Positions 14,843 to 31,051 of a stretch of 42,235 nt of DNA are shown in pieces (position 1 is the first letter of the stretch; every line of letters starts with the position of its first letter). Source of the stretch: an uncultured Spirochaetales bacterium (GTDB lineage Bacteria > Spirochaetota > Spirochaetia > Sphaerochaetales > Sphaerochaetaceae). The notes under the pieces are model-generated. The model ran no database searches, was not told where the DNA came from, and was given only the letters and a program-made list of their open reading frames with translations. The translations under genes and the position numbers were made by a program. The stretch spans positions 1 through 42,235 of the forward strand of contig CAMEXG010000002.1 of NCBI GenBank assembly GCA_945947045.1, given 5' to 3'.

Positions 14843-15991
14843 CTAATTCTTCTTTATTTTTATATTTAGCTTTTCTCTGCACTTGGAAGCAGAAGCGACG
14901 ATACATTCAATAGTTATCGTTTCTTTATTGTAACTTCTTCTTATTTCTTCTGCTTGATTAATAACGCTTTCGATAGCTGCTGAAGAGAGTCCATCAAAGA
15001 TGGTGGAGAGAATCTGGGGAGTAAGATCTGAAGAGAAGGTCTTTCCCTTTCCATAGATTGTCAAAAGCTCCATTCGTGTCTTCTGGTCGGGATTTGAAAT
15101 AGTGTACTTCAGATCAAATCTGCCTGGTCTTATTAGAGCTGGATCCAGAGATTGGAATGAGTTTGTTGCTGCTACAACCATTACCCCTTTGTCCCCGCTA
15201 AAACCATCCATTTCATTTAAAAGAGTTGTGAGTATTCTATTATTTTCTTTATCAATACCGCTTCCAGCATAGTTTCTCTTTTCGCCTATTGAGTCGAATT
15301 CATCTATAAACACGATGCAAGGTTTCTTGCTTCTTGCTTTTTTGAAGAGCATCTTTACTTTCATTGCACCCAGTCCCATGACGGCGCCTTGGAAATCTGC
15401 ACCTTTTGTGGCTATGAAGTTTACACCTGATTCTTCTGCCAGTGCCCTTGCAAAGAGAGTCTTTCCGTTTCCTGGAGGTCCCTCAAGAATAATTCCTTTA
15501 ACTCTTTTTCTATTTTCATCAGGGCTCTTCATCTCTTTTACGATATTTTCCATATCTCTCTTCACTTCATCCATTCCCGCGATATCGGAGAAATGAACCC
15601 CTGTGTGTCTTACTATCTTGAAAGTGGAAGAATACCAATAGAGCGCTTTATATAGGGCAAAGATAAATAGAGCAAGGAACAGGACGTTAAAGAGGGAGTT
15701 TAATATGTCGTCCAGAGTTGTTGTATCATCAGATACCCTTATTCCTTTCTCCATCATATCCCTTTTGAAAGTAGGATAGTCAGGGTTTGGAACAGAGAGG
15801 GTCTTTCCTTCACTTTTTACTTTTAACACTTCTCCTTGGATGGATATGGATTCGACTTTCCCTTCATTCACTAAGCTTATGAACTGAGTAAAGGAAGTCT
15901 TTTGGGAAGTATCGAAAACATCAAAAGAGAATAAAGCCAAAAGAATGGCAAATACCAAAAAGCCAAAGATGATTATAGGTTTTCGTTTCAT
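14843..15991 (-). CDS. FtsH-like membrane AAA ATPase lacking the M41 peptidase domain
   Basis: N-terminal TM + FtsH_ext-like 'TSFTQFISLVNEGKVESISIQGEVLKV'; second TM; Walker A GPPGNGKT, Walker B CIVFIDEFDSIG, SRH ATNSFQSLDPALIRPGRFD; ends after the AAA lid, no HExxH. Start placed at MKRKP. Confidence 0.88.
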   Translation of the reverse strand: MKRKPIIIFGFLVFAILLALFSFDVFDTSQKTSFTQFISLVNEGKVESISIQGEVLKVKSEGKTLSVPNPDYPTFKRDMMEKGIRVSDDTTTLDDILNSLFNVLFLALFIFALYKALYWYSSTFKIVRHTGVHFSDIAGMDEVKRDMENIVKEMKSPDENRKRVKGIILEGPPGNGKTLFARALAEESGVNFIATKGADFQGAVMGLGAMKVKMLFKKARSKKPCIVFIDEFDSIGEKRNYAGSGIDKENNRILTTLLNEMDGFSGDKGVMVVAATNSFQSLDPALIRPGRFDLKYTISNPDQKTRMELLTIYGKGKTFSSDLTPQILSTIFDGLSSAAIESVINQAEEIRRSYNKETITIECIVASASKCREKLNIKIKKN

Positions 15992-16052
15992 AATCCAAAA
16001 GGTAACTCTATTTAGCCTTGCAGGGAAAGAGTTAAGGGGAGAGAATAGGTGT

Positions 16053-17210
16053 ATGAATAAAGTAAAATCTGAAGCTTCTCTTACTTTTTGGGAAGGTGCG
16101 GGCATAATAGTCGGTCATGGAGTAGGCTCTGGCGTATTGGCTGTCCCATATTTAGCGTCGAGAAACAGCTGGCAGAGTTTTGTGTTCATTATTGTTGCAG
16201 CATACCTAGTGAATCTAGTTCTCCACTATATGATAGCAGAATTGAGCCTCAATAATGGAGGAGGGCAATTTATTACAATATTCGAGAATGAACTCTTTAA
16301 GGGGAAGGTAGGAAAGTATCTGTCTTGGGGTGCTTTCGCCATCATGGGCTTCTCTGTACTTGTGAATATCGCTGGATTCATAAGTGGTGGAGGCGCGGTG
16401 TTTTCTTCGTGGTTTGGCCTTCCTGTCTGGGTTTCCCAATTGTTGTATTTTGCTCTTTGTTCCGTGGTGGTATATGCAGGAATGAAGGCGGTGGGGATAT
16501 GCGAGAAGATATCTGTGTTTTCAATGGTGGTGGTCGTATTGATTCTTTTCATTTCAGTCATGACCGGGGACAAAGAATCTCTTCCTTCCCATTTTGTAGC
16601 CCCATCAAATATTCTTGCCCTTTATGGAATGGTCGCCTTTGCTTTATCTGCTGTAATGAGCGTACCTCAAGTAGTAAAGGGTTTCCATGGAGATCCAAAG
16701 AAAATAAAGAGTTCCATTGCTGCAGGAACAGGGCTTAACGTCGTACTTATTGTCGTCATTACTTTCATGACCCTTATTGGCAGCGGCAGCTCAATTACTC
16801 AGGACGGAGCCTTAGTTGATCTCTCGAGAAAACTCGGAGGCTGGGTAGGAGTAGTCGGATATATATTCTCTCTTCTTGCTCTTTCAACTTCTTTCTGGGC
16901 CAATTCACTGAATTTAAGGGATATAGTATCGGAAAAGACAGGTCTCTCAAGAAAGAAGAGCTGGATTCTAGCCACCCTTCCTTGTCTTATTTTGGCTCTT
17001 TTAGGATTGGAGGGCTTTGTAGGGTTCACTAGAATTGCAGGAGTCATCCAGGTCATAACAGGCCTAGGTGTCATTCTTGCTTATCATATTTCTAGAAAGA
17101 GGACTGGAGGTAGTCCGATTTGCTCTTTCTTCGGCACTCTTCCTTTCCAAATAATAGTAGTTGTCGGATCATTGGCATCTACTGTCGGATCCCTTATTAA
17201 GGTTGTTTGA
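16053..17210 (+). CDS. Aromatic/hydroxy amino acid permease-like transporter (HAAAP/APC superfamily)
   Basis: 'SLTFWEGAGIIVGHGVGSGVLAVPYLASRNSW' resembles the Trp/Tyr permease N-terminus; ~11 TM-like segments; start placed at ATG 16053. Confidence 0.75.
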   Translation: MNKVKSEASLTFWEGAGIIVGHGVGSGVLAVPYLASRNSWQSFVFIIVAAYLVNLVLHYMIAELSLNNGGGQFITIFENELFKGKVGKYLSWGAFAIMGFSVLVNIAGFISGGGAVFSSWFGLPVWVSQLLYFALCSVVVYAGMKAVGICEKISVFSMVVVVLILFISVMTGDKESLPSHFVAPSNILALYGMVAFALSAVMSVPQVVKGFHGDPKKIKSSIAAGTGLNVVLIVVITFMTLIGSGSSITQDGALVDLSRKLGGWVGVVGYIFSLLALSTSFWANSLNLRDIVSEKTGLSRKKSWILATLPCLILALLGLEGFVGFTRIAGVIQVITGLGVILAYHISRKRTGGSPICSFFGTLPFQIIVVVGSLASTVGSLIKVV

Positions 17211-18077: not shown

Positions 18078-18105
18078 TTGCAAAATGGGCATAATGAGTT
18101 AAAAT
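18078..18105 (+). promoter_or_regulatory. Predicted sigma70-type promoter of the LacI operon
   Basis: TTGCAA - 16 nt - TAAAAT. Confidence 0.6.
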
Positions 18106-18110
18106 AGATA

Positions 18111-18126
18111 CTGGGAACGTTCCCAG
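18111..18126. promoter_or_regulatory. Perfect 16-bp palindromic candidate LacI-family operator
   Basis: CTGGGAACGTTCCCAG just downstream of the predicted -10, upstream of the LacI-family gene. Confidence 0.8.
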
Positions 18127-18144
18127 TTCCCATAGGAGTATTAG

Positions 18145-19149
18145 TTGCCCACAATTATCGATGTAGCAAAGAGAGCAAATGTTTCAAAAAGTACTGTAAG
18201 CAGAGTTCTTGCAGGTGAAGGGAATGTGAGCAAAGAGAGTAGAGATGCTGTCATGAAGGCTGTGGAGGAGCTTAATTTTGTAAAGAATAGCGTGGCTTCA
18301 TCGATGCGCACAAGAAAATCGAAGACGGTTCTCTTAATTATTCCTGACATAACAAACAACTTCTGGTCTGAAGTATCAAGAGGTGCTCAGATTGTTTTGG
18401 ATAAAAAAGGTTACTCTTTGATGGTTGCCAATTCCGATTGGCAGAAGGACAGAGAAGAAAGATACCTTCAGCTTGCAATGGAGCACAAAGTCGATGCTGT
18501 GATGGTCAATGCTCCGGACATGGATATGGAGAAGGTATCTAAGATGGTGGATACCCCTATAGTAGTTCTGGGAGAAAGAAGTCAAAAACTTCCTTTCCCT
18601 ATTGTAGGAACCGACTCTTACAAAGCAATAAGAAAGGCTTTGGATTATGTGTGGAGCAAGGGACATAAAAGAATAGGAATAGTATTATCTGCATCCTTCG
18701 ATAGTGAAGGGACGAAGAACAGCACGAAGTACAGAGCTTATTGCGATTGGATGAAAGAGAAGAATATAGATATTAATGAAAAATGGGTCATTAATATTCC
18801 TCTTTCTATTGAAGGAGGAAAAAAACTTTTCTCAATATGGAGAGATATGGATGAAAAGCCTTCTGTCATTCTTACTGGAAATGATCTTGTGGCTGTTGGT
18901 TTTACTAAGAGTGCCAGAGATGACGATGTAGTAGTACCAGACGATGTTTCTCTTGTTGGGTTTGATGATATTCCTTTGGTGGGACTTATGAGTCCTGGAA
19001 TAACTACTCTCCAAAAGCCGAAAAGTGAAATAGGAGCAATAGCTGCAGAGAGAATACTTGAAATGCTTGATGGTAAGACAGTTCCAGAGAGAACTCTATT
19101 GGATTCTCTTTTGATTGAGCGAGAGTCTGTAAAAGGAGAAAAACTGTGA
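18145..19149 (+). CDS. LacI/GalR-family transcriptional regulator (TTG start)
   Basis: N-terminal HTH 'PTIIDVAKRANVSKSTVSRVLAGEGNVSKESRDAVMKAVEELNF'; AGGAG 7 nt before TTG; C-terminal 'LVGFDDIPLVGLMSPGITTLQKP'. Confidence 0.93.
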   Translation: MPTIIDVAKRANVSKSTVSRVLAGEGNVSKESRDAVMKAVEELNFVKNSVASSMRTRKSKTVLLIIPDITNNFWSEVSRGAQIVLDKKGYSLMVANSDWQKDREERYLQLAMEHKVDAVMVNAPDMDMEKVSKMVDTPIVVLGERSQKLPFPIVGTDSYKAIRKALDYVWSKGHKRIGIVLSASFDSEGTKNSTKYRAYCDWMKEKNIDINEKWVINIPLSIEGGKKLFSIWRDMDEKPSVILTGNDLVAVGFTKSARDDDVVVPDDVSLVGFDDIPLVGLMSPGITTLQKPKSEIGAIAAERILEMLDGKTVPERTLLDSLLIERESVKGEKL

Positions 19150-20516
19150 TTTTAAAGGAAACAAAAATACTTGCTCCCTGTGGGATTTTAGGATATGGAT
19201 TTCCAGACACTTCCTTTAGAAGAGGTCTTGATGATAATCCCGATGCAATAATCGTAGATGCCGGGAGTACAGATGCTGGTCCCCATAAGCTTGGCGCCAA
19301 AACAGCCATTGTAAGCAGAATGGCGGCAAAGAAGGATCTTAAGCGCATTATTGGCGGTGGAATTGAGAAAAGAATCCCCGTGATAATCAGCTCTGCTGGT
19401 GGAAGCGGAGGAAAAGAGCATGTTGAGTGGACTCTTTCCATTGTCCAGGAGCTGTTTATTGAAGAGAACTGGCCTAGCGTCAAGACAGCTGTCATTTGGG
19501 CGGACATCCCTGATAAAGCAATAGTGGATGCCATGGATAAGGGTCATGTCATCCCTATGGGTGAAAATATTCCACCTTTAACAAAAGAGAAACTCATGCA
19601 GACAACTGGTGTCGTTGCCCAAATGGGATATGAACCAATTCTTAAAGCCCTGGAGGAAGGGTATCAGCTTCTTATTGTAGGAAGAGCCTATGATCCCGCT
19701 CCTTTTGCTGCTCTTGGAGTTTTCAAGGGACATGATTTGGCTTTGAGTTATCATTTGGGGAAAGTTTTGGAGTGTGGAGCCCTCTCTTGTGATCCAGGGA
19801 CCACAAAGGACTGCATGATGGGAGTCTTAGGTGACGATTACTTTGATGTTTACCCAACGTCTCAAACTCGAAAATGTACTACCCTTAGTGTCGCCGCCCA
19901 TACTTTCTATGAGAAGGATCATCCATATATTCTTCATGGACCGGGATGTGTAATGGATCTTTCCATGTGCACATTTAAGGAAGTCGATAAGAATCGAATT
20001 AGAGTCCAAGGAAGTGCGATTAAACCTAGCGATGGTTATTGGATCAAGCTTGAAGGAGCAAGAAAAGTTGCATATAGAACATTTGTTGTTGCAGGAGTAA
20101 GGGATCCTCTTCTCATAAGAAAAATCAAGGAAGTGGAGGTGTTGGTAGAAGAGAGCGTCAGAGAGCAGTACAGCGAAATAGATCCGTCTTTATATACAAT
20201 CAACTTCTTTAACTATGGAATTGACGGAGTCATGGGAGAACTGGAACCATTGAAAGATGTCCCTCATGAAGTCTGTGTACTCTTTGAAGTATTAGCTTCT
20301 ACGCAAGAAATGGCATCTGCCCTATGTGCTTCTCTTCGTTCTACATTCATGCACTATGGATATGAAGGAAGAAAGTCTACAGCTGGGAATCTGGCGTTCC
20401 CTTATGCTCCTAGTGACGTGGAGTTTGGAGCTGTCTATGAGTTTTCTGTCTATCATTTGATGAAAGTAGACTCTCCTCTCGCTTTTTTCCCTATTGAAGA
20501 ATGGCATGCGAGGTAA
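19146..20516 (+). CDS. AtuA/DUF1446-family protein (acyclic terpene utilisation AtuA-like)
   Basis: 'CGILGYGFPDTSFRRGLDDNPDAIIVDAGSTDAGPHKLG'; family assigned by motif and by the adjacent DUF4387 gene; 4-nt overlap with the LacI gene. Confidence 0.75.
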   Translation: MILKETKILAPCGILGYGFPDTSFRRGLDDNPDAIIVDAGSTDAGPHKLGAKTAIVSRMAAKKDLKRIIGGGIEKRIPVIISSAGGSGGKEHVEWTLSIVQELFIEENWPSVKTAVIWADIPDKAIVDAMDKGHVIPMGENIPPLTKEKLMQTTGVVAQMGYEPILKALEEGYQLLIVGRAYDPAPFAALGVFKGHDLALSYHLGKVLECGALSCDPGTTKDCMMGVLGDDYFDVYPTSQTRKCTTLSVAAHTFYEKDHPYILHGPGCVMDLSMCTFKEVDKNRIRVQGSAIKPSDGYWIKLEGARKVAYRTFVVAGVRDPLLIRKIKEVEVLVEESVREQYSEIDPSLYTINFFNYGIDGVMGELEPLKDVPHEVCVLFEVLASTQEMASALCASLRSTFMHYGYEGRKSTAGNLAFPYAPSDVEFGAVYEFSVYHLMKVDSPLAFFPIEEWHAR

Positions 20517-20519
20517 GAA

Positions 20520-20831
20520 ATGGAAAGATTAGTTGATTTAGCAAAAATGATCAGAAGTAAAAACAGTGGTCCTTTCCTCATTACTCTAGATGTTCTTTTT
20601 TCTGAAGAGAAAAATTACAGAAGGGTCAAGGAAAGTGGCGTTATAAATAAAGAGACTATTGAAAAGGCATATCATTTATCGCCGGGACAGCTGTTGGACA
20701 TCGTGTTCTTCGATTCCGCCCTTGGGGTAAAGATTACTTATGAGAGGAGTATTTCCTCAGGAACAATAGGTGACAGAGATGTATATGGGGCTCAGCAACA
20801 TGGACCTTTGATGGAGATTTTGATTCCGTAA
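20520..20831 (+). CDS. DUF4387-family protein (AtuA-associated)
   Basis: 'LVDLAKMIRSKNSGPFLITLDVLFSEEKNYRRVKESGVINKETIEKAYHL...IVFFDSALGVKITYERSISSGTIGDRDVYGAQQHGPL'. Confidence 0.75.
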   Translation: MERLVDLAKMIRSKNSGPFLITLDVLFSEEKNYRRVKESGVINKETIEKAYHLSPGQLLDIVFFDSALGVKITYERSISSGTIGDRDVYGAQQHGPLMEILIP

Positions 20832-20850
20832 TAAAGGTAAGGGAGATTGT

Positions 20851-21774
20851 ATGAAGAAAAATGAAGTAGAAAGACCAGTAAATAGAAGCCTTTGGAATAG
20901 ACTGAAGAACGAGAAGCTTCTTTATCTAATGCTCCTTCCGACTCTTATTTATTTCATTATCTTCAGATGTTGGCCTATTATCAATATGCGCCTTGCCTTC
21001 TTCCAGTTTAAGGCGAAGGGAGATTGGCCCTTTGTAGGCTTTAAGTATTTCAAGATGATATTCTCATCTCCTGGATTTGAACAGATTATGAAGAATACAC
21101 TTGTGATAAGTTTCCTGAAGTACATTCTTCTTTTCCCTTTCTTCATTATATTTGCAATAATTCTCAGTGAAATAAGAAGTAATGGTTTTAGAAAGTATGT
21201 TCAAGTAGTCTCTTACCTTCCTCACTTTCTATCTTGGGTCGTAATTGCAGGTATCTGGATTAACGCTCTTTCTTTAGAGGGAGGACTAAATCAGGTACTG
21301 TCTATATTTGGAATGAAGAGTATCGACTTTATGACAGATAAGAGTAAGATCCGATGGATTTTGATGATTTGTGAAGGGTGGAGGAGTCTCGGTTGGGATT
21401 CAATAATCTTCTATACTACAATTATTGCAATTGATCAGTCTCTTTATGAAGCGGCAAGAATCGATGGAGCAGGAAAACTGCAGATTATTCGATATATAGT
21501 TCTCCCTGCTCTCATTACACCTGCAGTCACTATGTTCATTCTGAATTTGGGTTTCTTCTTAAATGCAGGCTTTGACCAAGTGTTTAACTTCTCTAATGCT
21601 GCAGTACAGTCACGAATCGATATTCTCGATACTTACATTTACAGAATAGGTATAGAAGGAGGTCAGTATTCTCTTGCAACAGCCGTAAGTCTTATTAAGG
21701 GAGTTGTGGGAATGCTCTTGGTTCTTGGAACCCACATTATTTCTAAGAAACTTACAGGAAAAGGGGTATGGTAA
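20851..21774 (+). CDS. Carbohydrate-type ABC transporter permease (LplB-like)
   Basis: 'LYLMLLPTLIYFIIFRCWPIINMRLAFFQF'; EAA-type loop 'EAARIDGAGKLQIIRYIVLPAL'. Confidence 0.88.
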   Translation: MKKNEVERPVNRSLWNRLKNEKLLYLMLLPTLIYFIIFRCWPIINMRLAFFQFKAKGDWPFVGFKYFKMIFSSPGFEQIMKNTLVISFLKYILLFPFFIIFAIILSEIRSNGFRKYVQVVSYLPHFLSWVVIAGIWINALSLEGGLNQVLSIFGMKSIDFMTDKSKIRWILMICEGWRSLGWDSIIFYTTIIAIDQSLYEAARIDGAGKLQIIRYIVLPALITPAVTMFILNLGFFLNAGFDQVFNFSNAAVQSRIDILDTYIYRIGIEGGQYSLATAVSLIKGVVGMLLVLGTHIISKKLTGKGVW

Positions 21775-22658
21775 TGAAAAAGAGATTTTCGATAAGTCAG
21801 TTTATCATGGCGATAATGATGATTATCCTCACTCTCACCATGATTATCCCGATCATGAATATTGCTGCAAAATCCTTTTCTTCTCCTGAATCTTCAAGGA
21901 GTATGTCTGGACTTAGGATAATTCCAAAAGATTTTGATCTCTTCAACTACAAGATTGTGTTCTCTCATCCTATCTTGGTTCCAGCGATCATTAACAGTGT
22001 CATTATTACTGTAGTTGGAACTTTTATTAATATTCTTCTTACAACAACCGCCGCTTATGTCCTTACTAGACCAAAGCTTACTCTTAAGCGTCCATTAATG
22101 GTGTTCTTCATTATCATGATGCTTTTTGATCCGGGAACAGTTCCAGAGTATCTTGTTGTGCAGAAAATAGGGTTGATGGGAAGTAAATGGGCTGTAATCT
22201 TAGCCACTGCAGTCAACGTCTACTACTTGATTATTATGATGCGTTACTTTGAAGCTGTTCCCCAGTCAATTGTGGAGGCATCGGTAATCGATGGATGTGG
22301 CAACATGAGGAGCCTTACTAGTATTTACCTTCCTCTTGCCAAATCAGGGGTGGCTACAATTACTATGTTTTATGCCGTAGTGAGATGGAATGAGTATTTT
22401 AGAGCGACAATCTATCTTACAAGAAAGAGCACAGATTCAGTCTTGCAGGTGATTTTAAGACAATTTGTTGTTCTTGGAGACACTGTTTCTATACTAGGTC
22501 AGCAGGCTCTATTCGACTATAACGCAATAGCAAGGGCCGATTATGCTGCACTAAAGGGTGCAACTATCATGGTTGCAATTATTCCTATTCTAATTCTTTA
22601 TCCATTTGTACTTAAGTTCTACGCCAAGGATGCTCTTGCGGGTGGAATTAAAGAGTAA
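21768..22658 (+). CDS. Carbohydrate-type ABC transporter permease (YtcP-like)
   Basis: 'EASVIDGCGNMRSLTSIYLPLAKSGVATI'; overlaps the preceding permease; alternative ATG at 21774. Confidence 0.88.
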   Translation: MVMKKRFSISQFIMAIMMIILTLTMIIPIMNIAAKSFSSPESSRSMSGLRIIPKDFDLFNYKIVFSHPILVPAIINSVIITVVGTFINILLTTTAAYVLTRPKLTLKRPLMVFFIIMMLFDPGTVPEYLVVQKIGLMGSKWAVILATAVNVYYLIIMMRYFEAVPQSIVEASVIDGCGNMRSLTSIYLPLAKSGVATITMFYAVVRWNEYFRATIYLTRKSTDSVLQVILRQFVVLGDTVSILGQQALFDYNAIARADYAALKGATIMVAIIPILILYPFVLKFYAKDALAGGIKE

Positions 22659-22676
22659 TAAAAAAGGAGGTAAACT

Positions 22677-24149
22677 ATGAAGAAGACATTGGTGTTTATG
22701 ACAGTGCTTCTTGCAAGCCTTGCGCTTGTTTTCGCCAACGGTGCAAAGGAGGAGGCCGACAAGGTTTCTGCTCAATCTTCCGATGGAATCGGAACGCCAG
22801 ATAAACCTGTAGAGGTCACTTATCTTTGCAAAGACGTAGACCCGATCACTGATGCCGAGCAGCTTGGTATTCTTGAGAAGGCTATCGAGGAGGGACTTGC
22901 GAAGGAGGGCAAGTACATCGATCTCGTTATTCTTTCAGCTCCGACAGGTTCTTATAAGTCTGTAGTTCCAATTGCATTCAGAACAGGTCAGATTTCCCCT
23001 GATATCATCTATTTCCAGGGCGGTGACCAGCCTATTGCACAGGAAGGACTTTTGGAAGATCTTACACCTTATATTGAGTCAAGCGAGAATGTGCAAAATA
23101 TTCTCGAAGGTCACTCAAGAGCTAAAGTAACCAATTATCCATATCTTTTGTGGCTTGCTCCTGCAAGAGTACAGATTCCTGTAATGAGAGAAGATTGGTT
23201 TAATTCCCTCGAGTCTTCAAAGGCACTGATGGAGAATCCTACTGTAGACAACTACTATGCTCTTTTTAAGGAAATGAAAGACAAAGGTATCTGCAAGTGG
23301 CCTATTACTACAGACGGAACAATCCTTAAACTCGATTCTGTATTCAACCATGCTTTCGGCGTTACAGCTACAATTATGAAAGTTGATGGAAAGTGGGTAT
23401 ATTCCTGTGCGACAGAGATGGAGAAAAACAAGCTTGCATTCTACCACAAGCTATATGCTGACGGACTCTTGGATAACGAATATGTCACAAAGGCATGGGA
23501 TACAATGGAACAGGCATTCTATGAAGGCGAAGCAGGATGGGTTTCTGGAACAGCTGGGGACGTAATTAACGTCTACAACAACAAGATGATCCAGACTCAA
23601 GGTCAGAAGCTTGTCGTCCTTCCTCCTGCAAAAGGAGAGAGCTGGGCATACCAGAGCATAGATGTTACAAAGGAATCCAGAGGATTTGCAATTAATGCCG
23701 ATAGTTCAGTCAAAGATGCAGCTTGGGCTATTCTTGAATATATGGCAGGAGAAGAGGGAAGAATCCTAGATAAACTTGGACTTGAAGGAATCCACTACAA
23801 CATTAAAGACGGAAAGTATGTACTTACAGATAGCTTCCCATCATGGTGGGCTAAATTCTGGCCGACAATGAATGGCCTTGATACATCAAAGGTTGTTGGT
23901 GAAGTTCTTACACAGCCAGCAATTGATTCTTTGGATGCAGCAAATAAGTACTATGCTCCTGATACAAACGTTATCCTTCCTGAGGATCTTTTGCCTCTTA
24001 AGGATGCTATGGATCAGCTTTACACAGAGTATTCTACAGACATCATCAGAGGAATCAGACCAATTTCTGACTTCGATGAATTTGTTGAGAAATGGAATAA
24101 GGCTGGTGGCGACAAGATCAGCGAGTATCTTGCAACTGTCCTTAACTAA
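22677..24149 (+). CDS. Extracellular substrate-binding protein of the ABC importer
   Basis: AAAAGGAGG RBS; signal peptide ...LVFANGAKEEAD; solute-binding family 1-like sequence; between the permeases and the hydrolases. Confidence 0.85.
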   Translation: MKKTLVFMTVLLASLALVFANGAKEEADKVSAQSSDGIGTPDKPVEVTYLCKDVDPITDAEQLGILEKAIEEGLAKEGKYIDLVILSAPTGSYKSVVPIAFRTGQISPDIIYFQGGDQPIAQEGLLEDLTPYIESSENVQNILEGHSRAKVTNYPYLLWLAPARVQIPVMREDWFNSLESSKALMENPTVDNYYALFKEMKDKGICKWPITTDGTILKLDSVFNHAFGVTATIMKVDGKWVYSCATEMEKNKLAFYHKLYADGLLDNEYVTKAWDTMEQAFYEGEAGWVSGTAGDVINVYNNKMIQTQGQKLVVLPPAKGESWAYQSIDVTKESRGFAINADSSVKDAAWAILEYMAGEEGRILDKLGLEGIHYNIKDGKYVLTDSFPSWWAKFWPTMNGLDTSKVVGEVLTQPAIDSLDAANKYYAPDTNVILPEDLLPLKDAMDQLYTEYSTDIIRGIRPISDFDEFVEKWNKAGGDKISEYLATVLN

Positions 24150-24160
24150 ACAAAATCTAT

Positions 24161-24186
24161 CTCCTTCCCCTTTTTTGGGGGAGGAG
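24161..24186 (+). promoter_or_regulatory. Intergenic stem-loop after the substrate-binding protein gene
   Basis: CTCCTTCCCC-tttttt-GGGGGAGGAG (10-bp stem with one T:G). Confidence 0.7.
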
Positions 24187-24200
24187 AATGGAGACTAAAG

Positions 24201-26294
24201 ATGAAAGAAAGAGAAGTATTGGAAAGAATATATGCTGGGTTTATTGGCATGAACGCCGGAATAAGGTTGGGTGCTCCCGTGGAACCTACAGTCTGGAGTA
24301 GTGAAAGAATTGAAAGGTTTTATGGTGACATTACTTCATATGTCAAACCTTTTAGAAATTTTGCCGCCGACGATGATGCAAACGGACCCGTATTCTTTCT
24401 TCGTTCTCTAGATGATAAAGAAGAAGGAGTGCCTCTTACAGCTGGTGATGTTGCAGAAGCTTGGCTTAATTATGCCAGGGAAGGAATAGGAATGTTCTGG
24501 TGGGGAGGATATGGTGTAAGCACTGAACACACAGCATATCTGAATCTGAAGAATGGTGTTCCGGCTCCTCTTTCCGGATCTGAAATAACCAATGGAAAAG
24601 TATTATCCGAGCAGATCGGAGGTCAGATTTTTGTTGATACTTGGGGCTTAATTAATCCTGGAAATCCAAAGGCTGCTGCAGAGAGTGCAAAGATAGCGGC
24701 CTCCGTGTCCCATGATGGGGAGGGGCTTGAAGGAGCTGCATTTGTATCTGCTGCAATAGCTGAAGCCTTTGTTTCAAATGATATAGAAAGAATAGTTGAT
24801 GTAGCTCTTTCTTTTGTATCTGATGGTTCAATATATAAAAAGGTTGCAGAGGCGGTAATATCATTTCATAAAGAAAACCCTGATTCTTGGAGAGCCTGTC
24901 TCAGTATGCTTCAGAGTGAGTGGGGTTATGATAAATATAAAGGTGTTTGTCACATTATTCCAAATGCCGGTGTCGTAGTGATGTCGCTATTATATGGAAG
25001 ACACTTTAAGCGGGGCATAGAAATCGCAACCATGGCTGGCTGGGATACTGACTGCAACGCAGGAAATGTGGGGACTATACTTGGCGTAATGGATGGATTG
25101 GATGGCTTAGGAGAGGGATATAGGGCACCCATTAACGATATGATCGTGCTTTCTGGAGTCTCAGGATATCTCAATGTCCTCGATATCCCTACATATGCAA
25201 AGAAGTTGACTGCTTTTGCCATGATAAATATGGGTATTATTCCTTCTGATAACCTAAATATAGACGAAAGGCATCCCTCCTTTGATTTTTCCCTACCAGG
25301 AAGTACACATGGTTTGAGACTCTCCGATAGTATTCTAACGAAAATGCGCCATGTAGAAGGAAAAGGTGTTGATTCCAGCGGAGCTTTGGAAATTCTTTTT
25401 GACAGAATGGTAAGAGGGCAGAAAAGCAGAATCTACTATAAGAGCTTTTGGAGACGTGAGGACTTTGATGATGAAAGATATATGCCTGTGTTCTCGCCTA
25501 CAGTATATCCTGGAGAAAATGTAGAGATTACTTTCCGTTTTGAGCGCTTTAATGGAGAAGGTATGATTATATCTCCATATGTAAAAGATACTTTTACAAA
25601 AGAGATCATATATCTAGGCGGATCAATATATAAAGATGAAGACTGGCACACTATTTCATTTACTGTTCCTCAATTAAATGGTTCTTTCCCTGAGGAGGTG
25701 GGAATAGTTCTGGAGTCCAACAGTCCTTCTAAGTTCAGAGACTTCGGAGTACTTTACATCTCCTCATTCTCCATTAGCGGAAAGAGCGAATACTCTATAG
25801 ACTTCTCTCGTTCTACGAAAGAGTTTGCATCGGTCTTACCTTTCAGTCATGATCATGGTGCATGGGAAATTGTAGATGGAAGAATGGAGGAAATGAGCCT
25901 CAGCGGAGCTGAAGCTTATACAGGAAACTACTTTACCTCTGATGTGACAGTAGAGGGCGGAGTTGTTCCATATAGAGGAGAAAGTCATTTAGTTGGTGCT
26001 AGAATCCAAGGTGCTCAACGTGGGTATTATGGGGGAATAGACGAAGATGGTTTCTCAATAATAAAGAAGAGACATGGAAAGAAAATAGTAATTGCTCATA
26101 AAAAAGCCAATTGGGAATATGGAAGAGAATATGGTCTTACTTTATCTGTAATAGGAGACGAAATTACTCTTTCCGTCGATAATGAGAAGCAGTTGACAGT
26201 AAAAGACGATGAATATAAATACGGAATGGTTGGATATGGAGAGCTTTCCGGAGGAAGAAGGGCTTTCTGTAATATGAAGATCAAGGAGATGTGA
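24201..26294 (+). CDS. ADP-ribosylglycohydrolase (DraG/ARH)-family domain fused to an uncharacterised ~300-aa C-terminal region
   Basis: 'NFAADDDANGPVFFLRSL', 'AKIAASVSHDGEGLEGAAFVSAAIA', 'AGWDTDCNAGNVGTILGVMDG' fit the family with substitutions; C-terminus looks like a LamG/jelly-roll type fold ('GYYGGIDEDGFSIIKKRHGKK...LSVIGDEITLSVDNEKQL'). Confidence 0.75.
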   Translation: MKEREVLERIYAGFIGMNAGIRLGAPVEPTVWSSERIERFYGDITSYVKPFRNFAADDDANGPVFFLRSLDDKEEGVPLTAGDVAEAWLNYAREGIGMFWWGGYGVSTEHTAYLNLKNGVPAPLSGSEITNGKVLSEQIGGQIFVDTWGLINPGNPKAAAESAKIAASVSHDGEGLEGAAFVSAAIAEAFVSNDIERIVDVALSFVSDGSIYKKVAEAVISFHKENPDSWRACLSMLQSEWGYDKYKGVCHIIPNAGVVVMSLLYGRHFKRGIEIATMAGWDTDCNAGNVGTILGVMDGLDGLGEGYRAPINDMIVLSGVSGYLNVLDIPTYAKKLTAFAMINMGIIPSDNLNIDERHPSFDFSLPGSTHGLRLSDSILTKMRHVEGKGVDSSGALEILFDRMVRGQKSRIYYKSFWRREDFDDERYMPVFSPTVYPGENVEITFRFERFNGEGMIISPYVKDTFTKEIIYLGGSIYKDEDWHTISFTVPQLNGSFPEEVGIVLESNSPSKFRDFGVLYISSFSISGKSEYSIDFSRSTKEFASVLPFSHDHGAWEIVDGRMEEMSLSGAEAYTGNYFTSDVTVEGGVVPYRGESHLVGARIQGAQRGYYGGIDEDGFSIIKKRHGKKIVIAHKKANWEYGREYGLTLSVIGDEITLSVDNEKQLTVKDDEYKYGMVGYGELSGGRRAFCNMKIKEM

Positions 26295-27283
26295 TTATGA
26301 TGACCAGAAGTGAACTTGCAAAAAACAGAGAATTGGTAAAAGACAAGGCAGTGGGGGCATTAGTAGGCCTTGCCATTGGAGATTCTTTTGGTGACGCATG
26401 CCGCCTTCAAGACAATCGAGTAAACTATGGTATTACTACAGATTTTAACTCAGGAGCCTCTTGGAGTACCGATGACACTGAATTTGCCCTTTTGACGGCA
26501 AAGACTTTACTTAAGTGTAAAGGGAACCTTACGACAAAAGACGTTGTAGATGCTTGGATGGAAGATGTTTGTGTCCAGGATGAATATAAGAGAGGAGGGG
26601 CCAGCGAGAAGGCTGCTGCAGATAACTTGAGACGAGGTCTCAGACCACCAGAGTCTGGTAAGTTTAACACCTTCTTTATGAGTGACGGTACAGCCATGAG
26701 AATCCCTCCTGTAGGCATTGTTGCGGCTGGAGATCCTGAGAGGGCCATAAAGATGGCGGAAATCGATGCTTCAATAAGCCACTATGAAGAAGGAATATGG
26801 GGAGCCCAGTCTGTTGCCGCAGCAGTATCTGTTGCAATGGTGGATGGTTCTTTTGACGAGATTATGGAAGCAGCTCTCCTTCCTATCCCTACTGACAGCT
26901 GGCTTTATTATAACCTGACAGAAGCTTTTAAGATTATCGACAGTGTAAACGGTTCTCTATTTGACTGTTGGATGCCTATTCATGATTTATTACGTGCATC
27001 CACTTGGGCAACTACTGCAGAAGCAATTCCAAGTGCATATTGTGCACTTAAGCTTTCCCATAATAATTTCAGGGACGGCGTTGTAATTGCAGGCAACTTT
27101 GCTCGTGATGCCGATACCATTGGGGCTGTCTGTGGTTCTATCTTAGGCGCCAAGTATGGATTAAAATCTATTCCTGAAAAATGGGCGAATAAAGTAAGGT
27201 ATCCTAGTGGAACATGCCTTCAGTTTACAAAAGGACTTGATATCTTCCAAGTCGGAGAAGCTTTAGGTAACCTCATAGTATAG
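26291..27283 (+). CDS. ADP-ribosylglycohydrolase-family protein
   Basis: 'GALVGLAIGDSFGDACR', 'SWSTDDTEFALLTAKTLL', 'NFARDADTIGAVCGSILGAKYG'. Confidence 0.9.
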   Translation: MIMMTRSELAKNRELVKDKAVGALVGLAIGDSFGDACRLQDNRVNYGITTDFNSGASWSTDDTEFALLTAKTLLKCKGNLTTKDVVDAWMEDVCVQDEYKRGGASEKAAADNLRRGLRPPESGKFNTFFMSDGTAMRIPPVGIVAAGDPERAIKMAEIDASISHYEEGIWGAQSVAAAVSVAMVDGSFDEIMEAALLPIPTDSWLYYNLTEAFKIIDSVNGSLFDCWMPIHDLLRASTWATTAEAIPSAYCALKLSHNNFRDGVVIAGNFARDADTIGAVCGSILGAKYGLKSIPEKWANKVRYPSGTCLQFTKGLDIFQVGEALGNLIV

Positions 27284-28182
27284 TGGGTATAATAATGAAG
27301 AAGATCCTTGTTTTTGGTTCATTGAATATCGATATCGTATACTCCTTAGATCATATTGTCAGACCTGGGGAGACTATCCTTAGTTCTTCTATTGAGAAGA
27401 ATGCAGGAGGGAAGGGGCTTAACCAAGCTTGCGCAATATCTAAGACAGGGCTGGATGTCTATATGGCAGGATGCGTAGGAGAGGATGGGGATATACTCAT
27501 CGATACTCTCTCTTCCTTTGGTGTGAATGTAGATAATGTTAAGAGATTAGATGTTCCTACTGGAAACGCAATTATTGAAAGAAGTCGTGACGGTCAGAAC
27601 TCAATCATTCTTTTTGCAGGAGCCAACAGAGCCATTGATGAAACATTAATAGACAGCGTCCTCGCCTCTTTCTCTACAGGCGATATTATTGTGCTCCAGA
27701 ATGAGATTAACGGACTCTCTGAAATAATTAAGAAAGCAAGCGAAAAGGGTATGTATGTAGTCTTTAACCCAGCACCGTTTGATGAGTCTGTATTCTCTCT
27801 TCCTTTGGAGAATGTAAACTTACTGGTAGTAAATGAAATCGAAGGAGCAGGAGTAGCTGGAAAGGGAGATGATGCAACGTATGAAGAGATTCTCGATGCA
27901 TTGAAAGATAAGTATAGAGATAACGAAGTGATTATGACCTGCGGCAAGAATGGTTCTTATTGGCAAAAAGGAGATAAACGAATCTTTGAGAAAGCAAGAG
28001 TCGTAGATGCTGTGGACACTACTGCCGCTGGCGATACTTTCATCGGTTACTTCATCGCTTCAAGAGAGATGGGATATGACACAGAAGATGCAATGAAATA
28101 TGCTACCATCGCTTCTTCTATCACTGTAACAAGAAAGGGAGCGGCAGGTAGTGTTCCTGAAGGAAAAGAAGTCTTTCAGTAA
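27283..28182 (+). CDS. Ribokinase-like PfkB-family carbohydrate kinase
   Basis: 'NIDIVYSLDHIVRPGETILSS...NAGGKGLNQACAISKTG', 'VVDAVDTTAAGDTFIGYF'; ATG 27295 is an alternative start. Confidence 0.9.
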   Translation: MGIIMKKILVFGSLNIDIVYSLDHIVRPGETILSSSIEKNAGGKGLNQACAISKTGLDVYMAGCVGEDGDILIDTLSSFGVNVDNVKRLDVPTGNAIIERSRDGQNSIILFAGANRAIDETLIDSVLASFSTGDIIVLQNEINGLSEIIKKASEKGMYVVFNPAPFDESVFSLPLENVNLLVVNEIEGAGVAGKGDDATYEEILDALKDKYRDNEVIMTCGKNGSYWQKGDKRIFEKARVVDAVDTTAAGDTFIGYFIASREMGYDTEDAMKYATIASSITVTRKGAAGSVPEGKEVFQ

Positions 28183-28204
28183 AAGAAAAACTATATAATA
28201 AGGT

Positions 28205-28240
28205 AGGCTCATCAGATGAAACTGATGGGCTCTTTCTTTT
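28205..28240 (+). terminator. Rho-independent terminator at the end of the LacI operon
   Basis: GCTCATCAG-atgaaa-CTGATGGGC followed by TCTTTCTTTT. Confidence 0.85.
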
Positions 28241-28511
28241 GAATGAAAGGGGACAGAGTTGTAGACAATTTGACGTGTAGTATTTCTTTTTGTCATTCTT
28301 GCTTTCTTTATCTCTATTAATGAGTATTAGAATCAAAAGTGATAAACAAAAGAGAATTATGCTCTATTGTTTTATAGCCCAAAACTTGTAAGAAACATAA
28401 ATGACAATTATTCTTTTGTCACCAAATAAGTTAAAGATTGCACCTGAGACAGTATGTGCATTAAAGATTCGTTTGTAAAACGGAACTTGGCTTCTCAAAG
28501 CCTGGCTAATA

Positions 28512-28583
28512 TAGGCCCACTGGGAATCGAACCCGGATATTATCCTCCGGAGGGATACGCTTTATCCATTAAGCTATAGACCC
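28512..28583 (-). tRNA. tRNA-Arg (anticodon CCG)
   Basis: Minus strand GGGTCTATAGCTTAATGGATAAAGCGTATCCCTCCGGAGGATAATATCCGGGTTCGATTCCCAGTGGGCCTA folds as a cloverleaf; anticodon loop CTCCGGA. Confidence 0.9.
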
Positions 28584-28616
28584 ATGTCTTTACCATAATG
28601 CTTTTCTTCTTCTCGT

Positions 28617-29669
28617 TCAATATTCGCCTTCTCCTCCGTCTGAGAAGTATGAGTTTAGGTTGAGAGGGTTGTATATACCCATATCTGTTACAATTCCGTC
28701 TATAAGGGACGGAGGTGTAATATCGAAGGCCGGGTAGTAGCCTTTGACGCCGCCGGGGGCTGTCCTGATTCCCATGGCTTCAAGAGAGAACTTTGGGTCT
28801 CTCATTTCAATTTTCACATCATCTATTGATTCATGGAATTTATCAGGATCGCCTGTTACATATGTTTTTACACCGAAGTATCTAGCACATATTGCTATAC
28901 CAAGAGTCCCCACTTTATTGACCACATATCCATCCATAGTTATTGCATCGGCGGCTGAAGTAAAGACATCGATATTTTCGTTTTTCATTACAAAGGCAGG
29001 CATGTTGTCTGTTATTACTGTAGTATCGAAGCCCATTTCAGAAAGTACTGTGGATGTAAGCCTTGCTCCTTGGAAGTATGGTCTGGTTTCAGGACAGAAG
29101 AATCTGACGTTTTTCCCTTCTTCCCTGAGAGTTCTTGCCATCATTCCGATTATGGTTTCTCCAAAGCATTGAGTCATTACAGATCCGTTGTCAGGGATTT
29201 GTGAAGATAGATACTTTGAGATTCTACATATTTTTTCATAACGCTTGTCATTGAGGGAGTAAACGTGATCTCTTACTGCATCTTCTAAGCTTTTCCCTTC
29301 TCTTTTAGCTTTCAGCGCTATAGGAATACAGCTTTCAGTAATGGAAGCGTATCTCTTTTGTGTAGTGGGGCGGGCTGTAGACAGAAGAAAGGAAGCTTCC
29401 TTTAAATGCTTTATAGTTTCTTCTTCATCAAGAGTTCTGCATTCCCTTGCCGCCAGAGCCATTCCCATGCCTACAGCTGTATATGGACCAGCAGATTGAG
29501 TGACCATGTTCCTTATGGCATCTCTTACTTCCATAACGCTATGGCATATTTCAAATCTAACAGTATTGGGATAAACACGCCTATCAAGGATTCTTACGAT
29601 TCCATCTTCATAGGATGCTATGTTTTCGTATCTGAGCATAAAGGCAAGGTCATGGTCTTCTCTTTTCAT
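28617..29669 (-). CDS. MtnA/eIF2B-family sugar-phosphate isomerase (methylthioribose-1-phosphate isomerase-like)
   Basis: 'SVMTQCFGETIIG' at the Cys motif position, 'FFCPETRPYFQGARLTSTVL', 'TSAADAITMDGYVVNKVGTLGIAICARYFGVKTYV'; GAGGAAG RBS. Confidence 0.8.
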   Translation of the reverse strand: MKREDHDLAFMLRYENIASYEDGIVRILDRRVYPNTVRFEICHSVMEVRDAIRNMVTQSAGPYTAVGMGMALAARECRTLDEEETIKHLKEASFLLSTARPTTQKRYASITESCIPIALKAKREGKSLEDAVRDHVYSLNDKRYEKICRISKYLSSQIPDNGSVMTQCFGETIIGMMARTLREEGKNVRFFCPETRPYFQGARLTSTVLSEMGFDTTVITDNMPAFVMKNENIDVFTSAADAITMDGYVVNKVGTLGIAICARYFGVKTYVTGDPDKFHESIDDVKIEMRDPKFSLEAMGIRTAPGGVKGYYPAFDITPPSLIDGIVTDMGIYNPLNLNSYFSDGGEGEY

Positions 29670-29703
29670 TTTCTTCCTCGTCTATATTCTATATAAACTC
29701 TAG

Positions 29704-29732
29704 TTGTTACCAAAGACTACTACTGATAAAAT
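29704..29732 (+). promoter_or_regulatory. Predicted promoter of the deaminase gene
   Basis: TTGTTA - 17 nt - TAAAAT; start codon begins 9 nt after the -10. Confidence 0.55.
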
Positions 29733-29740
29733 CTAGAGCT

Positions 29741-31051
29741 ATGTCATCTATATTATTTAAAAATGCAGGGATACTTGCGACAAAAAACAATGAGTTTGAG
29801 TTTATCGAAAACGGGTATTTGGCTGTCGATGGAGAAAGAATCGACTATATTGGGAAAGAAGAGCCAAAGAAGAAGTATGATGAAGAGAAAGATTGCTCAG
29901 GCTTGATTCTCACCCCAGGCTTTGTAAACTGCCATGGTCACTCGGCCATGACACTACTGCGTGGTGTAGGAAGTGATCTACCTTTGCAGGATTGGCTACA
30001 TGTAATGTGGCCTATAGAAGACAGAATGAATGAAGAGGACTTAAGGTGTGGAATGGATCTCTCTATTATGGAGATGCTTGCTTCCGGCACTACAAGTTTC
30101 ACTGATATGTACCTTATGCCTTGGGCTGTTGCAGATACCATAGGAAAAAGCGGTATTAAGGCAAACTTCTCTCGTGTAATGCAGGCTTTCCAGGAGATGG
30201 ACGACAGCGACTATGACTCATACTACAGAGTAAAAGAAACAGAGGACTTGGTCTCAGCTTTCCATAATTCCTACTCCGAGAGACTTAAAGTCGATTATGC
30301 AATACATGCAGAGTATACATGTAAGCCACTGGTTGTCAGAAGATATAGCGAGGATTGTCTAAAAAAAGGTTTGAAGATGCAGATCCACCTTTCCGAGACA
30401 AAAAAAGAGCACTTGGAATGTATAGAGAAGTATGGGAAGACTCCCACAGAGTGGTTTAATGACTTGGGGTGCTTTGAAAACCCAACGCTTGCTGCACACT
30501 GCGTTTGGGTGGAAGATAACGATATGGACATTCTAAACGAGAAAGGTGTTACAGTTGTTCATAACCCTACATCCAACTTAAAGCTTGGAAGTGGATTTGC
30601 TCCTATTCCCGAGATGATCAAGAAGGGCGTTAATGTCGCCTTGGGCACAGATGGAGCTGCCAGCAATAATAATTTGAATTTCATGGAAGAGATTCACCTT
30701 GCATCCATTATCCATAACGGCAGATTGGGAGATCCTACAGTCATGAATCCAAACACTGTACTGAGGATGGCCACAATCAATGGAGCGAAAGCCCAGGGAA
30801 GGGAAGATACAGGTAGTTTGGAAGTAGGAAAGAAGGCTGACATAGTAGCGTTTGACGTAAATAAGCCTCACCTTACACCAAACCTCAATCCTGAAGCCCT
30901 GTTGGTTTATTCAGCACAAGGAAGCGATGTGTGTATGACAATGGTGGATGGAAAGATTCTATATGAGAAGGGAGAATTTAAGACTATCGATAAAGACAGG
31001 GTCTTTTATGAAGTGAAGAAGAGTATAGGGAGATTGTACGGGGAAAAATAA
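29741..31051 (+). CDS. Amidohydrolase, 5-methylthioadenosine/S-adenosylhomocysteine deaminase-like (MtaD/ATZ-TRZ family)
   Basis: 'LTPGFVNCHGHSAMTLLRGVGSDLPLQDWLHVMWPIEDRM', 'MQIHLSETKKE', 'LAAHCVWVEDNDMDIL', 'ALGTDGAASNNNLNFMEEI'. Confidence 0.88.
   Translation: MSSILFKNAGILATKNNEFEFIENGYLAVDGERIDYIGKEEPKKKYDEEKDCSGLILTPGFVNCHGHSAMTLLRGVGSDLPLQDWLHVMWPIEDRMNEEDLRCGMDLSIMEMLASGTTSFTDMYLMPWAVADTIGKSGIKANFSRVMQAFQEMDDSDYDSYYRVKETEDLVSAFHNSYSERLKVDYAIHAEYTCKPLVVRRYSEDCLKKGLKMQIHLSETKKEHLECIEKYGKTPTEWFNDLGCFENPTLAAHCVWVEDNDMDILNEKGVTVVHNPTSNLKLGSGFAPIPEMIKKGVNVALGTDGAASNNNLNFMEEIHLASIIHNGRLGDPTVMNPNTVLRMATINGAKAQGREDTGSLEVGKKADIVAFDVNKPHLTPNLNPEALLVYSAQGSDVCMTMVDGKILYEKGEFKTIDKDRVFYEVKKSIGRLYGEK

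Follow-up and report, generated by a model that had tools for sequence, protein, structure and literature searches.

A widespread bacterial operon predicted to degrade sugar conjugates of citrate-like acids carries a replaceable citrate-type lyase

Why would a single operon combine a LacI-family repressor, the protein pair AtuA/DUF1446 and DUF4387, a sugar-type ABC importer, two ADP-ribosylglycohydrolase (ARH)-family proteins and a ribokinase-like kinase? We addressed this question for a locus of an uncultured Spirochaetales bacterium, located in a 42,235-nt stretch of contig CAMEXG010000002.1 that is referred to here as the window. An initial annotation had proposed that the operon imports a ribosylated or other glycosidic compound, hydrolyses it inside the cell, phosphorylates the sugar and processes the remaining acid with AtuA/DUF4387. 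Our searches of the literature on DUF4387, on citramalate lyase and on ADP-ribosylglycohydrolase together with citrate lyase found no account of this operon.

The layout was as initially annotated, with nine genes on the forward strand (18145-28182), joined by short gaps or overlaps (in order, -4, 3, 19, -7, 18, 51, -4 and -1 nt), and with the promoter, palindromic operator and terminator all present at the same positions as before. We infer that the nine genes are co-transcribed. The first encodes the LacI-family repressor (18145-19149, TTG start; PF00356, PF13377). Upstream of it, a consensus scan placed a sigma-70-like promoter (18078-18105, forward strand) with a -35 TTGCAA, a 16-nt spacer and a -10 TAAAAT, a combination that matches the consensus about as often as chance would predict (30 found versus 29.7 expected); the related locus L017 keeps the same hexamers, and in L019 their position is taken by other promoter-like hexamers. 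A few nucleotides beyond the -10 element lies a putative LacI-type operator, ACTGGGAACGTTCCCAGT (18110-18127), recognized by its palindrome and its conservation. It is the sole perfect 18-bp palindrome in the window, its 14-bp core is single-copy genome-wide even when one mismatch is allowed, and this core is kept upstream of lacI in L017 and L019, and imperfectly in L042, within diverged flanks. This uniqueness and conservation support a dedicated repressor that acts at a single operator close behind the -10 element. At the other end, 24 nt past the kinase stop codon, an intrinsic terminator-like hairpin with a 10-pair stem is followed by a T-rich tail (28206-28231, forward strand).

The surrounding genes showed features of their own. 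Directly 3' of the operon terminator lies a tRNA-Arg gene with a CCG anticodon (28511-28584, reverse strand), followed at 28617-31051 by divergent genes for an IF-2B/MtnA-like isomerase (reverse strand) and an amidohydrolase (forward strand), which may form a separate purine-thioether salvage cluster, and by an ABC_sub_bind transporter from 31231. On the other side, the gene at 14843-16105 (reverse strand) encodes an FtsH-like protein with FtsH_ext and AAA domains and no peptidase M41 match in its 420 aa, which makes it a relative of FtsH with the ATPase part only. The listed start of its gene overlaps that of a divergent Trp/Tyr-type permease gene (15945-17210).

A PDB sequence search with AtuA (19146-20516; PF07287, 75 bits) and DUF4387 (20520-20831; PF14330, 129 bits) returned one significant match per protein, both in entries 9erq/9evf, which are named citramalate lyase here after their PDB titles ('Citramalate lyase, subunit A (cmlA)' and 'subunit B (cmlB)'). 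AtuA matched 9erq chain A with 431 bits over 447 aa, and DUF4387, the gene for which starts 3 nt after the AtuA gene, matched chain B with 90 bits. The AlphaFold2 model of AtuA (pLDDT 90.9) aligned to 9evf_A, entitled 'Citramalate lyase - ADP - pyruvate complex', with a TM score of 0.92 at 45% identity. Large-subunit homology and fold, together with the adjacent DUF4387 gene, thus place the two proteins as putative large and small subunits of a CmlAB-type C-C lyase. Described as poorly characterized in the initial annotation, AtuA and DUF4387 no longer deserve that label, being homologous to a solved citramalate lyase and pointing to a C-C lyase step.

More distant relatives of the pair adjoin genes for MutL/MutE (glutamate mutase) and methylaspartate ammonia-lyase and, in L071, for a class I fumarase. 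Glutamate is converted along this route through methylaspartate and mesaconate to citramalate, and such neighbourhoods agree with the place where a citramalate lyase would be expected. In 2015, a DUF1446 gene in methylaspartate clusters was noted as being of unknown function, it was called unclear what becomes of citramalate in E. coli O157:H7, and CitDEF-type genes carried by clostridial methylaspartate clusters were assigned to citramalate lyase (PMC4682846); an alternation of CitDEF and DUF1446 is also visible in these clusters. The idea that AtuA/DUF4387 could be a hydratase, suggested by the methylaspartate context, was dropped, as the PDB match is a lyase and the class I fumarase is a separate mesaconase candidate. 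This lyase family occurs in a third, distinct setting in Gammaproteobacteria (L056, L064, L070, L080), where the pair lies beside a DRL-type oxidoreductase, a PhyH-family dioxygenase and a GntR regulator (Pfam-checked in L056, with the same gene sizes in the other three).

We then examined how the operon is distributed. Scanning 85,462 genomes with the AtuA-like protein as anchor yielded 80 loci, the AtuA identities of which showed a clear gap between 50% and 54%, with 40 loci above and 40 below. Above the gap, ARH genes were found within 10 kb in 37 of 40 loci, both permease genes in 36 and methylaspartate genes in none. The three loci without ARH genes are contigs of 3.5-4.5 kb, and every locus of this group with enough flanking sequence carries them. 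Below the gap, ARH genes were found in 0 and methylaspartate genes in 18 of the 40 loci. The above-gap AtuA proteins form one clade (SH-aLRT 95), with members from Spirochaetota, Paenibacillaceae, Bacillaceae, Clostridia and one Anaerolineaceae genome. The conserved-neighbourhood search proposed in the initial annotation therefore found a gene order that is not confined to one genome but belongs to a module conserved in three phyla, Spirochaetota, Bacillota and Chloroflexota. The kinase gene is present in 23 of the 40 clade loci and is not an obligatory part of this module.

Within its genus, the operon is an accessory trait, as DUF4387 occurs in 4 of 37 same-genus genomes. One of these relatives (L010/L016) carries all nine genes at 98-100% identity; another (L011/L017), with a different upstream flank, keeps the genes at 84-95% identity until its contig ends inside the ARHL gene, which encodes the larger of the two ARH proteins. 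A further same-genus genome harbours a distant AtuA/DUF4387 pair (31% identity; L012:8218-9956) beside a LysR gene and an aconitase-like gene.

The operon-linked lyases also differ from their methylaspartate-linked relatives in sequence. The AtuA proteins of the two groups share 87 near-invariant residues and differ at 22 positions that are fixed or nearly so, mostly without exception. Two operon-specific lysines, K48 and K221, both within otherwise invariant family motifs, occur in 39 of 39 operon-linked proteins and in 0 of about 40 others with data at those positions. From these residues, we infer a changed acid for the operon-linked lyase, perhaps one with an extra negative charge, such as citrate. 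The operon would operate as CmlAB coupled to the uptake of a sugar conjugate, but the substituted positions and the missing methylaspartate genes both set its enzyme apart from a citramalate lyase proper.

The strongest evidence on the acid step comes from lyase replacement, seen when ARHL instead of AtuA was used as search anchor, which imposes no selection for a lyase. Searching 299 Spirochaetia genomes, 105 genomes of the Paenibacillus family and 388 of a clostridial class, we retrieved 66 ARHL neighbourhoods, 65 of which were classifiable. At ARHL identities of at least 41%, a cut chosen after inspecting the data, one of four lyase systems was present at 45 of 48 loci: AtuA/DUF4387 at 26, CitE plus CitF at 11, a citryl-CoA lyase with an acid-CoA ligase at five, a CitE-like lyase with an NDP-forming acid-CoA ligase at two and CitE at a contig end at one. 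At the remaining three loci, the contigs stop within 2 nt of the ARHL gene. Below the cut, 16 of 17 loci had no lyase system (Fisher P = 2e-11, for loci that are not phylogenetically independent). Also below it lie the clostridial loci L028 and L053 (37-39% ARHL identity), which have CmlAB, and L202 (33%), which has CitE/CitF. Paenibacillus ARHL paralogues with about 40% identity and other neighbours served as a negative control.

The replacing subunits were named by Pfam and NCBIfam matches of representatives. CitF scored 434-484 Pfam bits, and CitF of L136 was also above the NCBIfam equivalog cut-off; the other proteins comprised HpcH/HpaI CitE-like lyases, a citryl-CoA lyase above the NF004869 cut-off, and SucCD-like and acetate-CoA-ligase-like subunits. 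The CitD acyl carrier protein was seen as a fusion in L136, the only place looked at. Measured against the citrate-lyase equivalog cut-offs, CitE and the majority of the CitF members fall short, so that they may act on an acid other than citrate. In the ARHL tree, the CitE-plus-ligase loci of Paenibacillus (L169, L174) branch, with full support, within the Paenibacillus group that has CmlAB, and parsimony gave four changes among lyase types. The clostridial locus L177 illustrates such a change: its ARHL, smaller ARH protein (ARHS), permeases and solute-binding protein are 51-66% identical to those of the window, and its lyase is CitE/CitF.

The families of all four systems are known to convert citrate or citramalate, either free or bound as a thioester, to a 2-oxo acid with release of an acetyl unit, which allows good confidence in the reaction type of the acid step. 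Because AtuA/DUF4387 is homologous to citramalate lyase and is swapped for citrate-lyase-type systems, the pathway would include a C-C lyase step, in which a hydroxy acid resembling citrate or citramalate is very probably broken down to an acetyl unit and an oxo acid. As computational evidence for a reaction type, the occupation of one operon slot by four partly unrelated systems is unusually strong. The operon is not peculiar to one genome; it is a catabolic module of wide occurrence, in which the citrate-type lyase can be exchanged.

Turning to the sugar side, the importer consists of an LplB-like permease (20851-21774; PF00528, BPD_transp_1, and sugar-permease NCBIfam matches), a YtcP-like permease (21768-22658), assigned by synteny and by NCBIfam sugar-permease matches alone (GlcU/UgpE/MalG), which are below cut-off, and an extracellular solute-binding protein (SBP; 22677-24149; PF01547, SBP_bac_1), the similarity of which to AlgQ1/AlgQ2 is too weak to name a ligand. 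No ATPase gene was found in the operon; MalK/MsmX-type ATPases are encoded elsewhere in the genome, including three OB_MalK proteins above cut-off. This composition corresponds to a CUT1-type sugar ABC importer with a presumably shared ATPase.

Both hydrolases belong to the DraG/ARH superfamily by their PF03747 matches and their intact paired Asp metal motifs (DDxx and DxDx). ARHL (24201-26294, 697 aa; 163 bits), which has no obvious signal peptide, was modelled by AlphaFold2 with a pLDDT of 92, and Foldseek matched its N-terminal part to MJ1187, ARH3 and DraG and its C-terminal part, two carbohydrate-binding-like beta domains, to CBM66 (TMt about 0.8) and CBM22. ARHS (26291-27283, 330 aa; 179 bits) carries the canonical Asp motifs as DDT and DADT. 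It remains far below the DraG and Tri1 NCBIfam equivalog cut-offs (63 of 337 and 70 of 490 bits, respectively), and ARHL has no match to either. The carbohydrate-binding-like domains of ARHL and the sugar-type importer argue for a glycosidase role of the ARH proteins. Of the 'ribosylated or other glycosidic' substrates initially annotated, a ribosylated compound is only one candidate, and a broader glycoside is equally possible given these domains.

The kinase gene (27283-28182, with a possible ATG start at 27295) encodes a PfkB protein (PF00294, 174 bits), the best 12 PDB matches of which are all ribokinases; it scores 237.9 bits against a cut-off of 299.65 for the ribokinase RbsK equivalog TIGR02152. 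In L133, a PRPP-synthetase-like gene follows the kinase gene. Ribose is at most a reasonable guess for the sugar. Some related operons contain additional hydrolase genes. Esterase genes were found in or beside the operon in L028 (11582-12649), L051 (6568-7671), L052 (7053-8126), L053 (3021-3803) and L168, and a carbon-nitrogen (amidase-type) hydrolase gene in L138 (5682-6506), hinting at an acid with further ester or amide bonds in the substrate. Bacillaceae and related loci (L040, L043-L045, L047-L049) carry up to four different ARH-family genes in the AtuA/DUF4387 operon, suggesting that several linkages are cleaved.

Taken together, we consider it probable that this is a LacI-repressed operon for the catabolism of a sugar conjugate bearing a citrate-like hydroxy acid. 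The conjugate would be imported by the SBP-LplB-YtcP transporter with a shared MsmX-type ATPase and cleaved in the cytoplasm by ARHL and ARHS, the DraG/ARH-fold hydrolases, of which ARHL has the carbohydrate-binding-like domains. The ribokinase-like kinase would phosphorylate the sugar set free, perhaps ribose. From the acid, with citrate, citramalate or another 2-substituted malate as candidates, the CmlAB-type lyase would release acetate or an equivalent acetyl unit and leave a 2-oxo acid, a reaction to which protein homology and the structure model point strongly; in relatives, CitE/CitF, an acid-CoA ligase with a citryl-CoA lyase, or an acid-CoA ligase with a CitE-like lyase would take over this step. 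The order of events initially annotated thus fits the evidence, except that sugar phosphorylation does not extend to all loci. Against the pathway speak the absence of the kinase from many loci and the 22 positions separating the operon-linked AtuA from the citramalate-lyase group, and we know of no natural sugar-citrate conjugate of matching distribution. More tentatively, sugar conjugates of citrate-like acids could be an unrecognized nutrient class used in three phyla, with the ARH proteins as glycosidases with carbohydrate-binding domains and AtuA/DUF4387 as a new lyase specificity, for example for citrate, marked by K48 and K221.

Other explanations have to account for the same observations. 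Nucleoside or riboside breakdown as proposed for E. coli yegTUV, with the ARH proteins releasing ribose, the kinase making ribose 5-phosphate and the lyase acting on an unrelated, co-regulated acid of central metabolism, would be in line with the ARH-PfkB pairing that is also found in yegUV (PMC10819704), with the ribokinase matches and with the PRPP-synthetase-like gene in L133. YegU and YegV, however, are merely 27% and 20% identical to the operon hydrolase and kinase, respectively, the importer is of the sugar type and not a nucleoside transporter, and mere co-regulation fails to explain why four alternative lyases track the ARH core, making this explanation unlikely. A direct nucleoside pathway like yegTUV was rejected owing to the weak homology.

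The lyase could also act on a phosphorylated or otherwise sugar-derived branched acid, formed from the sugar itself instead of being imported as a moiety of its own, with the operon-specific lysines binding phosphate. Although the restriction of K48 and K221 to the operon-linked clade and the presence of a kinase gene would suit such a role, many loci keep the lyase without the kinase, citrate-lyase-type alternatives act on unphosphorylated polycarboxylates, and the cluster has no conserved dehydrogenase or dehydratase by which such an acid could be made; we thus give this possibility little credence. Still less plausible is a plain citramalate lyase beside a generic sugar-uptake operon: its 45% identity to the solved subunit A notwithstanding, the clade-specific substitutions, the lack of methylaspartate genes in all 40 clade loci, the strict linkage to the ARH core and the functional replacement all speak against it.

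The preferred reading, degradation of a sugar conjugate of a citrate-like acid, would provide a concrete biochemical role for two protein families whose annotation has long been either unknown function or, to misleading effect, terpene utilization. A further suggestion is that many bacterial 'ADP-ribosylglycohydrolases' serve in catabolism as glycosidases and are not regulators of protein ADP-ribosylation. The substrate, if found, would define a nutrient niche common to spirochaetes, paenibacilli and clostridia.

Finally, the operon can be set beside known systems. It resembles CmlAB in that both subunits are homologous, their genes are adjacent and the predicted large-subunit fold is the same, but differs from it at the 22 diagnostic positions, including both lysines, and in its linkage to a predicted sugar-conjugate operon instead of the methylaspartate pathway. 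Citrate lyase (CitDEF) and citryl-CoA lyase share the predicted reaction type and replace AtuA/DUF4387 in otherwise equivalent operons, whereas they are non-homologous to it and use ACP or CoA thioesters. With E. coli yegTUV (the GgaR regulon), the operon has in common an ARH-family hydrolase and a PfkB kinase; yegTUV, in contrast, has a nucleoside-type symporter and no lyase. Similarly, the ARH proteins share their fold and metal-binding Asp motifs with DraG, ARH3 and Tri1, but fall well short of the DraG and Tri1 model cut-offs, and ARHL is further set apart by its CBM66- and CBM22-like domains.
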